Both the position numbers and the translations under genes were made by a program. Below are positions 9,698-41,426 of a stretch of 64,000 bases of DNA, in pieces. Each line of letters opens with the position of its first letter. Position 1 is the first letter of the stretch. The stretch lies in NCBI GenBank assembly GCA_003054695.1, contig QAZA01000045.1:558001-622000 (forward strand), in the 5' to 3' direction. Source of the DNA: Verrucomicrobia bacterium LW23 (lineage in GTDB: Bacteria > Verrucomicrobiota > Verrucomicrobiia > Methylacidiphilales > UBA1321). A model generated the notes under the pieces. That model had not been told where the DNA came from. It saw only the letters and a program-made list of their open reading frames with translations, and made no database searches.

Positions 9698-10117
9698 ATG
9701 AAAACATATCCTATCACCAAAATAATACCCGTTCCTCTCATCGCAACAACACTCGCCGCCGCCTTTGCCCTGGCCACGCCCGCCATGGCCGGCCCCTCGC
9801 TCTCCCCCGTGCAGGAGGTCAAGGGAAACCGCACCACCCTGGAGGAGGCGCTGCACTACGCCCAGGTCTCCGAAGGATGGAACCAGGTGGCCATGATACC
9901 CGAAAGCGACGAAAGCCTGTGGGCATGGGTTGTGGGCGGGCAGATCATCAAATGGGAGGTGCGCAATACCGCCGGGCGGCCGCTGCCCACCGAGATCGCG
10001 CTGTCGGAAAATCCCTCCAACCTGCGCATTGTGTGGCGCGCGACCAATCAGTCGCCCCTCAAGTTTATTGAGGAGCCCGCATGGGTCATCCGCCCCGAAA
10101 CGGCACCGGATTTCTAA
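9698..10117 (+). CDS. Small exported protein of unknown function
   Basis: A 139-residue protein with a signal peptide (residues 1-31; MKTYPITKI, hydrophobic stretch, cleavage after ATPAMA). The mature 108 residues contain several Trp (EGWNQ, LWAWVVGG, IKWEV, IVWRA, PAWVI) spaced as in a small beta-rich domain. AGGAG about 13 bases before the ATG may serve as ribosome-binding site. It lies 36 bases before the convergent helicase stop. No family recognised. Confidence 0.6.
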   Translation: MKTYPITKIIPVPLIATTLAAAFALATPAMAGPSLSPVQEVKGNRTTLEEALHYAQVSEGWNQVAMIPESDESLWAWVVGGQIIKWEVRNTAGRPLPTEIALSENPSNLRIVWRATNQSPLKFIEEPAWVIRPETAPDF

Positions 10118-10153
10118 AGACCAATCCAAGCAAAGCCCGGTTAAGAAAAGCCT

Positions 10154-12865
10154 CTAAGCCGCGCCGTCGCCCTGGCCCCGGCTCCAGAAATCGCGCAGGA
10201 TGGCGCCGACATCCCGGGCCGAGCGCGCCCGTGCGATGTTCCACCACGGCGGAAAAAGCTCGCTGTATCGGCTTTCGCGAAAGCGCGAGTCGATCAGCAC
10301 CACCACGCCCCGGTCCGTATCGGACCGGATGACGCGCCCGGCGGCCTGCTGCACCTTCGTCATGCCCGGGAACAGGTAGGCGCAGGCAAAGCCCACGTCG
10401 CGCGAGGCGGCCGGGAATGGCGGTGCGTCTGCGCCGACGGCGCTGCCCTGGTGCTGTCGCGGCACGGCCTGGCTTTGGAAGTAGTTGCGTATCAACTCTC
10501 TCTCCAGGCTAAGCTGCGGCAGGCCGGGGCCGACAATGACGGCGCCGTGCAGACGGTCGCCGATAAGATCGATGCCCTCGCCAAAGATACCGCCCATGAC
10601 CGCAAAGCCGACGAGCGGACGGGTGTGATCGTGCCGGAACGACGCCAGGAATGATTCGCGGCTCGCCTCGCTCATCTGGTTCTCCTGCAACAGGATATCG
10701 ATGACGGGGACATGGGATGTCCCTGCGGTTGCAGATGTTGCGGCTATCTCGCGAAATGCCGCGGCTACATCGCGCAAATACAGGTAGCTGGGGAAGAAGA
10801 CCAGGTAGTTGCCTGGGCGCGCAAGTATCGTGGCATAAATCATTTGCGCAACGTCGGGGATGGTTGCCGCGCGGTGCTTGAACGTTGTCGCCACCCGGTC
10901 CGCCACCACCACCTCCAGGTGCTCCGGAGGGAACGGGGAGGGGAGCCGCAGCGTGGTGTGCGCGGCGCCGCCACCCAGCAGTTTGTGATAGAACGGCAGC
11001 GGCGTAAGCGTGGCCGAAAAGAAGATGGCCGAGGTGCCGCGCGCGAGTGCCTCGCCGAGAAGTTTGGAGGGATCCAGGCAGAAGAGCTTGAGGTACGCTT
11101 CGTCAGGCGCCTCCCTATCCTGTTGCAGGATAGCCACATAGCGCTCATCAAAGCCCTCGGCCGTGCGCAGGAATGTGGTGATCTCGAAGTAGTGCTGCAT
11201 CAGCAACTCGCGAAAGGGTGCGGGTGTGTTGGCGGCCAGCCACGGCTCGGCTACCTCCAGCACGCGCTGCAGCGAAGTGCGCACCGTCTCCGGCAGCTCG
11301 GAGACAATGCGGGAGGGCGGGTCGTCGCGGGTGGGCGCGAGGTCGTGCGTCAGCGGGGCGGCTGGGTCGGTAATGAGCTCGCGCAGGCGGCGCGACGCGC
11401 TGTCAATCGCGCGGGCCACCTGGGGCAGATCCTTGCGCACAGCGCGGGAGAGATCCCGCAACTGCGAGCCTCGGATCTCGGCAGAAAACATTTCCCGCGC
11501 GCGGTCGGGGAGATTGTGCGCTTCGTCCACCAGAAAGACAAAACGTCGCCCTGGCGCGCTGGGGCCGGTTTCCTCCTGAAAATAGCGGCGCAGATAAGCA
11601 CTCGGGTCGAACGCGTAGTTGTAATCGCAGATGATCAGGTCCGCAAAGAGCGAGGCGTCGAGCGAGAACTCGAACGGGCAGATGCCATGGCGGCGCGCGA
11701 TCTCCTCCGTTGCTGAGCGCGTAAGCTCCTCCACAGTAAGGACTTCGCGCAGCGCGGGCTTGAGGCGGTCGTAGTAGCCCAGCGCCAGGGGGCAGGTGCG
11801 CGGGTCGCACCGGTTGCCTTGCGGGTCCACGCACAGCTTCTCCTTGGCGGTAAGGGTGACGGCGCGCATGCGCAGCCCGGCGCGTCGCAAATCCGCGGCG
11901 GCTTTCTCGGCCACCGTGCGGCCGATGGTACGCGCGGTGAGGTAGAAGAGGCGGTCCGCGAGGCCGGACGGGCAAGGGGGAGGGACATTGCGTGTCCCCG
12001 GCGTCTCGCCGGTTGCGGAAACTGTTGATGATGCGGGGGTTGTCGCATGCCCGGCCAGCGCTTTTATGGCGGGAAACATCACAGATATCGTCTTGCCGAT
12101 CCCCGTCGGCGCCTCCGCAAAAAGCCGGCCGCCGGAGGCGATGGCCCGGTAGGCGGCGACAGCCAGCGCGCGCTGGCCGGGGCGGTAGGCGAAGGGGAAT
12201 TGCAGCGCGCGGATCGAGTCGTCGCGCGTGCGGCGCCATTCCACTTCCGCGCGCGCCCACTCCATGTACTCGCCTGCCACGCGCTCAAAATTGTCCGCAA
12301 GTTCCTGCGCCGTACATACTTTTCGAAATTCCACGGGGATGTCGAGATCGAGCTGCAGGTAGGTCAGGCGCAGCTCAATACGGTCGATCCGCACCGCATC
12401 CGCACTGGCAGGGACATTCTGTGTCTCTGGGACACGCAATGTCCCACTCGCTTTCCCTGCGGATTGCACGCAGATAATGTGCCCGTAGATTTCTGCCTGC
12501 GCCCAGTGCAGCGGGTCGGGCTCGCCGTCCCAGCCGGCCGTCACGGTCTTGATTTCCTCCAGCACGGCGGGTGCGGGCGTGCGGCGCAGGCAGTCGATGC
12601 GGCCGCGGATGAGGAGGCTGAATGTCTCGCCGGGCACGCGGATGCTTACAGCCACCTCGGTCTCAAAGTCGGTGCGCAGCTTTTGCAGGCGCTGATGGCC
12701 GCGCGTGCCTTCCAGCGCGCGGTTGGAGCCCTGGAACAGGCCGGAGCCCGCCAGGTCGCCGCTACGCAACACAAAATGCACCAGATCTCTCACGGAGAGA
12801 GCGACTTCCGGCAACGCGGGCGTTGCGGCTGCGGCCTCTCCCGGCTCCGCCTTTCGCGCGGCCAT
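10154..12865 (-). CDS. DinG/XPD-type helicase with N-terminal PD-(D/E)XK nuclease domain
   Basis: A 903-residue protein. Residues 28-130 carry the RecB/AddB/Cas4-type nuclease set: H57, D91 (GRID), E104-I-K106, and Q123-x3-Y127. Then comes an XPD/DinG superfamily 2 helicase: Walker A EAPTGIGKT, four Cys for an iron-sulfur cluster (LCVDPQGNRC, RTCP, GICPFE), DEAH box VDEAHNL, and motif VI QAAGRVIRSDTDRG. It would unwind DNA 5'-3' and cut single strands. The ATG overlaps the aat stop (TAATG), so translation is probably coupled. Three linkers hold palindromic inserts read as GTxxVP (listed separately). It lacks the exonuclease fold found on some Gram-positive DinG proteins. Confidence 0.88.
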   Translation of the reverse strand: MAARKAEPGEAAAATPALPEVALSVRDLVHFVLRSGDLAGSGLFQGSNRALEGTRGHQRLQKLRTDFETEVAVSIRVPGETFSLLIRGRIDCLRRTPAPAVLEEIKTVTAGWDGEPDPLHWAQAEIYGHIICVQSAGKASGTLRVPETQNVPASADAVRIDRIELRLTYLQLDLDIPVEFRKVCTAQELADNFERVAGEYMEWARAEVEWRRTRDDSIRALQFPFAYRPGQRALAVAAYRAIASGGRLFAEAPTGIGKTISVMFPAIKALAGHATTPASSTVSATGETPGTRNVPPPCPSGLADRLFYLTARTIGRTVAEKAAADLRRAGLRMRAVTLTAKEKLCVDPQGNRCDPRTCPLALGYYDRLKPALREVLTVEELTRSATEEIARRHGICPFEFSLDASLFADLIICDYNYAFDPSAYLRRYFQEETGPSAPGRRFVFLVDEAHNLPDRAREMFSAEIRGSQLRDLSRAVRKDLPQVARAIDSASRRLRELITDPAAPLTHDLAPTRDDPPSRIVSELPETVRTSLQRVLEVAEPWLAANTPAPFRELLMQHYFEITTFLRTAEGFDERYVAILQQDREAPDEAYLKLFCLDPSKLLGEALARGTSAIFFSATLTPLPFYHKLLGGGAAHTTLRLPSPFPPEHLEVVVADRVATTFKHRAATIPDVAQMIYATILARPGNYLVFFPSYLYLRDVAAAFREIAATSATAGTSHVPVIDILLQENQMSEASRESFLASFRHDHTRPLVGFAVMGGIFGEGIDLIGDRLHGAVIVGPGLPQLSLERELIRNYFQSQAVPRQHQGSAVGADAPPFPAASRDVGFACAYLFPGMTKVQQAAGRVIRSDTDRGVVVLIDSRFRESRYSELFPPWWNIARARSARDVGAILRDFWSRGQGDGAA
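10708..10724. repeat. Palindrome GGGACATGGGATGTCCC inside helicase gene
   Basis: A 17-nt element with perfect 7-bp arms. On the helicase strand it reads GTSHVP within an insert between AATSATA and VIDILLQ. It is the most diverged of the in-gene copies but is in the same frame as the others. Confidence 0.8.
11982..11998. repeat. Palindrome GGGACATTGCGTGTCCC inside helicase gene
   Basis: A 17-nt element with 6-bp arms. It is read as GTRNVP in a roughly 25-residue Thr/Ser/Pro-rich insert after the Walker A region and before the conserved LFYLTART. It is followed by GGTTGCGG, as at the other copies. Confidence 0.85.
12411..12445. repeat. Double palindrome of the same family inside helicase gene
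   Basis: Two copies lie side by side: GGGACATTCTGTGTCTC (12411-12427) and GGGACACGCAATGTCCC (12429-12445). The second is the inverted form of the copy at 11982. The helicase reads them as GTLRVPETQNVP, an insert just after the QxxxY motif of the nuclease domain. Confidence 0.85.
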
Positions 12866-13560
12866 TAGGTCTCGATGGCTGGGGCTGCGGGCGGGCCGGG
12901 CTCCGGGTAAAAGGAGGTGCGGGAGGCCAGGGCGCGTTCCAGGCGGCGCAGGTACTCGGAGCGGCGCACCTCGATGGCGCCGAGGCGAGCGGTTAGTGGC
13001 GAAAGCACTTGCGTATCAAAGAGTTCGAAGTTGCGGCTGCGCAGGTAATCGAACAGAAAAACTAGGGCGACCTTGGAGGCATCCGTCACGCGGTAAAACA
13101 TCGATTCCCCCGCGAAAAAGCCGTTGATGGCGATGCCGTAGACCCCGGCCACCAGTTCGTCATTTTGCCAGGCCTCCACGCTGTGGGCGTAGCCGGCTTT
13201 GTACAGCTCGGTGTAGGCCTGGATGAACTGCGGGCTGATCCACGTTGTCTCCCGCCCCGGCGCGCGGCGGGCGCAGTTGCGGATGACGCCTTCAAAATCT
13301 TTGTCGATGGTGAGGATGAACTCCTTCTTTTTGATCTTGTCGGCCAGGCGGCGGTGGGGACGGAAGGTGGCGAGTTCGAAGATGGCGCGGGGGTCAGGCG
13401 ACCACCATGTAAGCGGCTCATCGGTCCACGGAAATATGCCGGACCGATAAGCGAGAAGAAGGCGCCGAACGGAGAGGTCCCCACCGATGGCGAGGAGACC
13501 TTCCTTGTTGGTACAGCTGACGTCGGGGAACTGGAGGTGATCGGATCGCAGGATAGTCAT
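12865..13560 (-). CDS. aat: Leucyl/phenylalanyl-tRNA--protein transferase
   Basis: A 231-residue cytosolic enzyme that adds Leu or Phe from aminoacyl-tRNA to proteins with N-terminal Arg or Lys, marking them for ClpAP (N-degron pathway). Family signatures are all present: GLLAIGGDLSVRRLLLAYRSGIFPW near residues 21-45, WWSPDPRAIF, GYAHSVEAW, LVAGVYGIAINGFFAGESMF and FELFDTQ. Length and start (MTILRSDHLQFP) agree with the family. Its TAA overlaps the ATG of the downstream helicase by one base. Confidence 0.95.
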   Translation of the reverse strand: MTILRSDHLQFPDVSCTNKEGLLAIGGDLSVRRLLLAYRSGIFPWTDEPLTWWSPDPRAIFELATFRPHRRLADKIKKKEFILTIDKDFEGVIRNCARRAPGRETTWISPQFIQAYTELYKAGYAHSVEAWQNDELVAGVYGIAINGFFAGESMFYRVTDASKVALVFLFDYLRSRNFELFDTQVLSPLTARLGAIEVRRSEYLRRLERALASRTSFYPEPGPPAAPAIET

Positions 13561-41153: not shown

Positions 41154-41426
41154 GGCTGGTGTTTAAACGCGCGCGGCGGTGAAAAGGTTGCGGAGCCCTT
41201 TCTTTATAAGTGAATGCGAAAGCTTCACAACAATTTTAGTTATTATGTTAGAACGAGTGTAAGAATAGCCAAGCAATTGCATTAAAGAAGTTTACGGTCT
41301 AATTATATAGATATACAAATGCACATTGATACACTTTTACATACTTTCGACACACACGCCAAATGGTATCACTGAAAGCAAAAAGTGGATGAATCAAGGA
41401 CACGCAAGGTCCCCGCCCCTCCCGGT

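Follow-up and report, generated by a model that had tools for sequence, protein, structure and literature searches.

An 18-bp palindromic repeat family, probably mobile, within and between the genes of a verrucomicrobial bacterium

The window analyzed here, a stretch of 64,000 nucleotides in the draft genome of Verrucomicrobia bacterium LW23, contains a helicase gene in which a short palindrome, GGGACA-N5-TGTCCC, recurs in frame, raising the question of what these copies are and whether they came into the gene as added DNA. The exact pattern is present at three sites of the window (elements 1, 2 and 3b in Table 1), while 0.01 sites are expected in a shuffled window; one more copy, element 3a, has a single arm mismatch corresponding to a common C>T variant and makes up a doublet with element 3b. 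The first-pass annotation had placed the copies correctly, apart from the first one, which starts at 10707 instead of 10708. All of them belong to the same 903-aa minus-strand reading frame, whose translation yielded the peptides that had been announced: GTSHVP, GTRNVP and, for the doublet, GTLRVPETQNVP (residues 141–152); similar doublets occur elsewhere in the genome. The claim that copies in opposite orientation are both read as GTxxVP was also correct: elements 2 and 3b are exact reverse complements, loop included. A related word, proposed near 41398, lies at 41397 and was dismissed, as it has two mismatches and the window is expected to hold 2.6 sites with up to two mismatches by chance. 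Directly upstream of the helicase gene, with a one-base overlap, is a gene for leucyl/phenylalanyl-tRNA protein transferase (12865–13560).

Table 1. Coordinates in the window of the helicase gene, its palindromic elements and the insertions around them
Feature	Position	Strand	Description
XPD/DinG-type helicase gene	10154–12865	minus	903 aa; Pfam DEAD_2, HBB, Helicase_C_2
Element 1	10707–10723		GGGACATGGGATGTCCC; translated GTSHVP, residues 715–720
Element 2	11982–11998		GGGACATTGCGTGTCCC; translated GTRNVP, residues 290–295
Element 3a	12411–12427		GGGACATTCTGTGTCTC; one arm mismatch (common C>T variant); translated ETQNVP
Element 3b	12429–12445		GGGACACGCAATGTCCC; 18 bp from 3a; translated GTLRVP
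Insertion around element 1	10706–10738	minus	11 residues, 710–720, TSATAGTSHVP; missing in 82 orthologues (alignment)
Insertion around element 2	11969–12052	minus	28 residues, 272–299; missing in 82 orthologues (alignment)
Insertion around doublet	12392–12460	minus	23 residues, 136–158; missing in 82 orthologues (alignment)

The alignment of the helicase with its orthologues showed that the copies are located in extra segments. None of the 82 aligned orthologues, including two from the same family (42% identical), contained a GTxxVP peptide, and thus the same inserts in unrelated lineages, which the first-pass annotation had named as evidence against its own reading, were not found, while its prediction that orthologues would be free of the inserts was borne out. 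In the AlphaFold model of the helicase (25 input sequences, mean pLDDT 80.6) the pLDDT dropped below 50 at residues 139–155, covering the doublet, and at residues 274–299, covering the 11982 copy; the 10707 copy was modeled as a coil with a helix on one side and a strand on the other.

The palindrome is not restricted to this gene. The 6.61-Mb genome (56 contigs) contains 149 exact copies against none of a reversed control pattern, which is far beyond chance. Within the flanked stretches retrieved for all 149 sites (1.12 Mb including the window), 223 copies with no more than one mismatch were found against two for the control, and the total with the degenerate copies, counted within these stretches, reached about 240, in line with the many copies predicted from the window. 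The 8-mer CAGGGACA had a partner arm (up to three mismatches) in 198 of its 223 occurrences and the remainder was close to chance level, so there was no sign of half-decayed copies. Other overrepresented palindromes of similar size gave weak matches only.

In other genomes the palindrome is rare. Approximately 645 genomes of the phylum had zero to three copies each; with the 12-base pattern, none of the other genomes among 116 exceeded three copies and all 11 genomes of the same family had none. A stricter pattern was run against two samples that overlap, 388 genomes from the phylum and 384 from the class, and gave 65 copies here and at most one in any other genome. Phages were considered as possible carriers and rejected: IMG/VR yielded no doublets and a single isolated copy. 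Searching the literature for the element sequence returned no matches. All the numbers for the family come from one draft genome of one strain.

The extended consensus is CAGGGACAT-NNN-ATGTCCCTG, with near-invariant arms, a free loop and an arm-to-arm gap that is always 5. The units are either single (100 of 157 loci) or tandem, with the largest arrays consisting of six units, and the members of doublets are separated by 1 bp. At tandem distance there were 35 exact inner-arm pairs, spaced by 18 bp in 33 cases and by 19 bp in two; the units are thus almost always in a register that keeps the reading frame. Duplication of one unit, direct or inverted, was rejected as the origin of doublets: the loops of neighbors are mostly unrelated, with few identical pairs in either orientation, which also makes the copy lineages untraceable. 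Among the arm variants, a G>A/C>T change of the second base, giving TGTCTC, is the commonest. G-T and A-C variants were about equally frequent on the sense strand (8 and 12, respectively, in same-strand spacers), which leaves selection for an RNA hairpin unsupported and argues for recognition as DNA.

Homology between unrelated sites ends at the palindrome of 17–21 bp or at the doublet of 35 bp. The GGTTGC/GGATTGC words noted after the helicase copies are indeed there, although outside the element: genome-wide, the flanks share no such 6-mer, GTTGC alone being slightly overrepresented (126 occurrences, 85 expected), and the possibility that such a word is part of a longer element was discarded because there is no common flank motif past the extended arms. 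Flanking direct repeats of 4–6 bp, as expected for a target-site duplication, were absent from the palindrome sites, and an excess of 2–3 bp repeats falls where tandem units would place it.

According to a home-made, self-trained gene finder, 76 of the exact copies are within predicted genes, 67 are intergenic and six are at gene edges. The intergenic copies are located preferentially at the 3′ ends of genes and are scarce at divergent promoters: their density per kb of spacer was 0.87 between convergent, 0.52 between same-strand and 0.15 between divergent genes. The copies are also clustered, with a neighbor within 1 kb at 33 of 118 loci against 4.5 expected. Inside genes, the exact copies are distributed over the GTxxVP, GHxMS and third frames as 47/24/5 (chi-square P about 3e-8), or 81/34/10 with the degenerate copies added, so that GTxxVP is the main reading, as claimed for the helicase, while roughly 30% of the in-gene copies are read as GHxMS. 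Since the intergenic copies are open in 86–95% of cases in every frame, this bias points to selection at the protein level and not to stop codons. The conserved entity, however, is the DNA, as 46 of 55 GTxxVP peptides are encoded by the element's own codons against 0.24 expected. The predicted enrichment in linkers was confirmed in 36 proteins: 13 of 59 element positions fell inside Pfam envelopes instead of the expected 22.4 (P = 0.004), matching the low-confidence and coil positions in the helicase model.

Loops and linkers of conserved proteins, including the helicase, MutS, UvrA, a UvrD-like protein, a U32 peptidase and acetoacetyl-CoA synthetase, harbor the in-gene copies, and about six added residues are apparently tolerated in a surface loop. 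Acetoacetyl-CoA synthetase has two elements and was compared with four orthologues (57–66% identical): the gain at the first site is six residues, or three when measured against one of these orthologues, and the net gain at the second site is three. In the U32 peptidase a triple array contributes 18 residues to a loop of variable length, in which one orthologue has its own long unrelated insert; a structure search with this protein returned no relatives. The pseudouridine synthase has extra residues around its copy, and in MutS a copy is located within a stretch of 112 residues between aligned blocks that are 15 residues apart in E. coli. Several of the helicase and MutS inserts exceed the length of the palindrome, and the linkers may already have been long when the copies entered them.

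Paralogous loci gave a similar picture at the DNA level. The genome contains three related prophage-like regions, L150 and L195 (near 9700–10330) and L163 (5920–6490). The first two (91% identical to each other in the stretch compared) carry three palindromes where L163 (62–64% identical) has a few bases, which makes L163 an empty site. Between L150 and L195 the arms are nearly unchanged, while the loops and the intervening spacers have diverged. Four Rhs-linked paralogues (74–82% identical) likewise kept the twelve core arm bases with varying loops. These Rhs-type loci (the 3.2–3.5-kb contigs L147, L171 and L178, and L157), which are probably collapsed Rhs repeats, have in common a palindrome whose stem is longer, GGGAGGGACAT...ATGTCCCTCCC.

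Among the host genes, those for DNA repair proteins and helicases were in excess, with 8 of 41 compared to 1 of 40 neighbors matched for length (Fisher P = 0.016), in a post hoc classification of our own that would give a weaker contrast with a serine recombinase counted in the controls. Seven of the eight hosts are MutS, a double-length UvrA, UvrD/AddA-like, uracil-DNA glycosylase, SNF2, HrpA-type helicase and the XPD/DinG-type helicase of the window, and the eighth is a weak match to DNA ligase. The UvrA protein (L194:1782–7913; ~2040 aa) has UvrA-type segments that match twice, as if two copies were fused. Separately, a 20-kb stretch of lower G+C (0.57) in L159, encoding PglZ, a large serine recombinase and a fusion of primase-polymerase with DNA polymerase A, looks like a defense island or a mobile element.

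The explanation that we favor, with somewhat better than even confidence, is a species-specific, non-autonomous, REP-like mobile family that invades genes in frame. Single copies or tandem units of 18 bp would have entered coding sequence as well as short gaps between genes. Since the length of the unit is divisible by three and stops are rare in all of its frames, an insertion would add approximately six residues, GTxxVP or GHxMS, and leave the gene unbroken. Selection would then eliminate the copies located in conserved domains, in promoters and in the third frame, which brings in Cys, and loops, linkers and gene 3′ ends would be the places where they remain. The loop drifts, whereas the arms and the 5 bp between them do not change, which indicates that the arms are recognized as DNA, probably as the site of a dimer. 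If the family is actively mobile, the trans-acting enzyme reading the arms would most simply be a dimeric protein, probably belonging to the same machinery that multiplies the copies; no autonomous copy or flanking transposase was found for the family. What the comparisons establish is a lineage-specific family that reached genes and spacers as added DNA, is filtered according to frame, domain and promoter, and has constrained arms. The palindrome might, though this is doubtful, represent minimal selfish DNA of a kind of its own: a symmetric, untagged, frame-preserving unit of 18 bp that enters genes and spacers equally readily and whose enzyme recognizes only the two 9-bp arms.

The main rival explanation sees in the palindromes operators or chromosome-organizing sites of a dimeric DNA-binding protein, kept for the benefit of the host with no need of selfish spread, the in-gene copies being in linkers merely as linkers can afford them. 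The two readings differ in the cause they expect for the arm constraint. The constraint itself is what a dimer site would show: the arms are near-invariant and exactly spaced around a free loop, they are conserved across diverged paralogues, and their G-T and A-C variants have no strand bias, as for a signal at the DNA level. Such sites would hardly be expected, however, to avoid divergent promoter regions and to be intragenic in half of the cases, to arrive as added DNA and not by point mutation, or to be clustered and arrayed in tandem at 18 bp while the 11 genomes of the same family have none, and we regard this explanation as unlikely. Spread of the motif by biased DNA uptake or recombination, a molecular drive of the DUS/USS type acting on sites born by point mutation, is very improbable. 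The palindromes resemble uptake sequences in their stable consensus, free loop, location in unconstrained regions of proteins and preferred frames; against this, there are just ~240 of them in 6.6 Mb, strongly clustered and in exact 18-bp tandem arrays, and they are present as inserted DNA.

The palindromes might also be ordinary REPs whose movement depends on a RAYT (Y1 tyrosine transposase) encoded in the same genome. They fit REPs in their size and number, in their bias toward the 3′ ends of genes and in being present inside genes (PMC3733652), and the genome has five Y1_Tnp matches. However, the tag expected beside the stem was not above controls (GTAG at 8 and CGTC at 19 of 480 flanks, with control counts of 10 and 28), the palindrome-free relatives commonly have Y1 genes too, and none of the Y1 genes found here has a palindrome beside it, which leaves this route unsupported and in our view improbable. 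One Y1 (RAYT-like) gene (L187:6042–6497) has a different inverted repeat on its two sides, gtagcccagggtaag / cttaccctgggctac, which seems to represent a TIR-type family of its own. Finally, GTxxVP might be a functional peptide with the palindrome as its by-product, or a product of chance. An autotransporter-like pair, L163/L177, does encode GTLTVP within 98%-identical paralogous sequence, which means that a small number of exact matches may be due to chance; but the same rare codons shared by most GTxxVP peptides, the intergenic location of about half of the copies and the orthologues lacking the peptide already refute this for the family, and its probability is negligible.

Within a single lineage, the repeated insertion of a tiny palindrome can thus lengthen conserved proteins, DNA repair enzymes included, in steps of six residues. 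The family is a clean, countable system, in which frozen arms next to free loops make it directly testable what recognizes such repeats.

The parallel with the Rickettsia palindromic elements, drawn in the first-pass annotation, holds for the way of working: in both cases palindromic repeats are found in frame in conserved genes as well as between genes, and the host protein tolerates them. The element is a different one, unrelated in sequence and lineage: the Rickettsia elements have 105–146 bp (PMC2229807), compared to 17–21 bp here, adding 6, 12 or 18 residues, which lowers the known size of gene-invading palindromes. REPINs and their RAYTs also involve short palindromic families that are clustered and spread within a genome; they consist of two REPs in inverted orientation, have clusters next to the RAYT and lie outside genes almost without exception (of 1067 16-mers, 14 overlap genes; PLoS Genet 2011, PMC3116915), while here there are no inverted pairs around a spacer and most loci have a single unit. 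In contrast to MITEs, the palindromes have no target-site duplication. They may resemble the small dispersed repeats of cyanobacteria, which Elhai et al. in 2008 reportedly described as very small, numerous and proposed to be mobile. The closest precedent is a group of GTAG/CGTC-tagged palindromes of 20–40 bp, the REPs found inside genes in Opitutus terrae and in other species (Di Nocera et al., 2013; PMC3733652). Those repeats differ in having a tag, a head and a tail, an associated tyrosine transposase (for the GTAG type, a RAYT gene with the repeat on its flanks) and a lower intragenic share than the approximately one half found here, while the present family has a symmetric stem and a fixed 18-bp tandem register. 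Both are short palindromes between convergent or same-strand genes, occurring as singles, dimers and groups, and both appear as extra residues when inside genes. The tagged REPs likewise tend toward DNA repair genes, O. terrae having the highest number of intragenic GTAG copies, among them those in both of its uvrA genes (PMC3733652), and the repair-gene hosts found here agree with that report: uvrA, UvrD/REP helicase, ligase and pseudouridine synthase are hosts in common. The present family is a new, unusually small relative of these known gene-invading palindromic repeats, found in one species and missing from its relatives.
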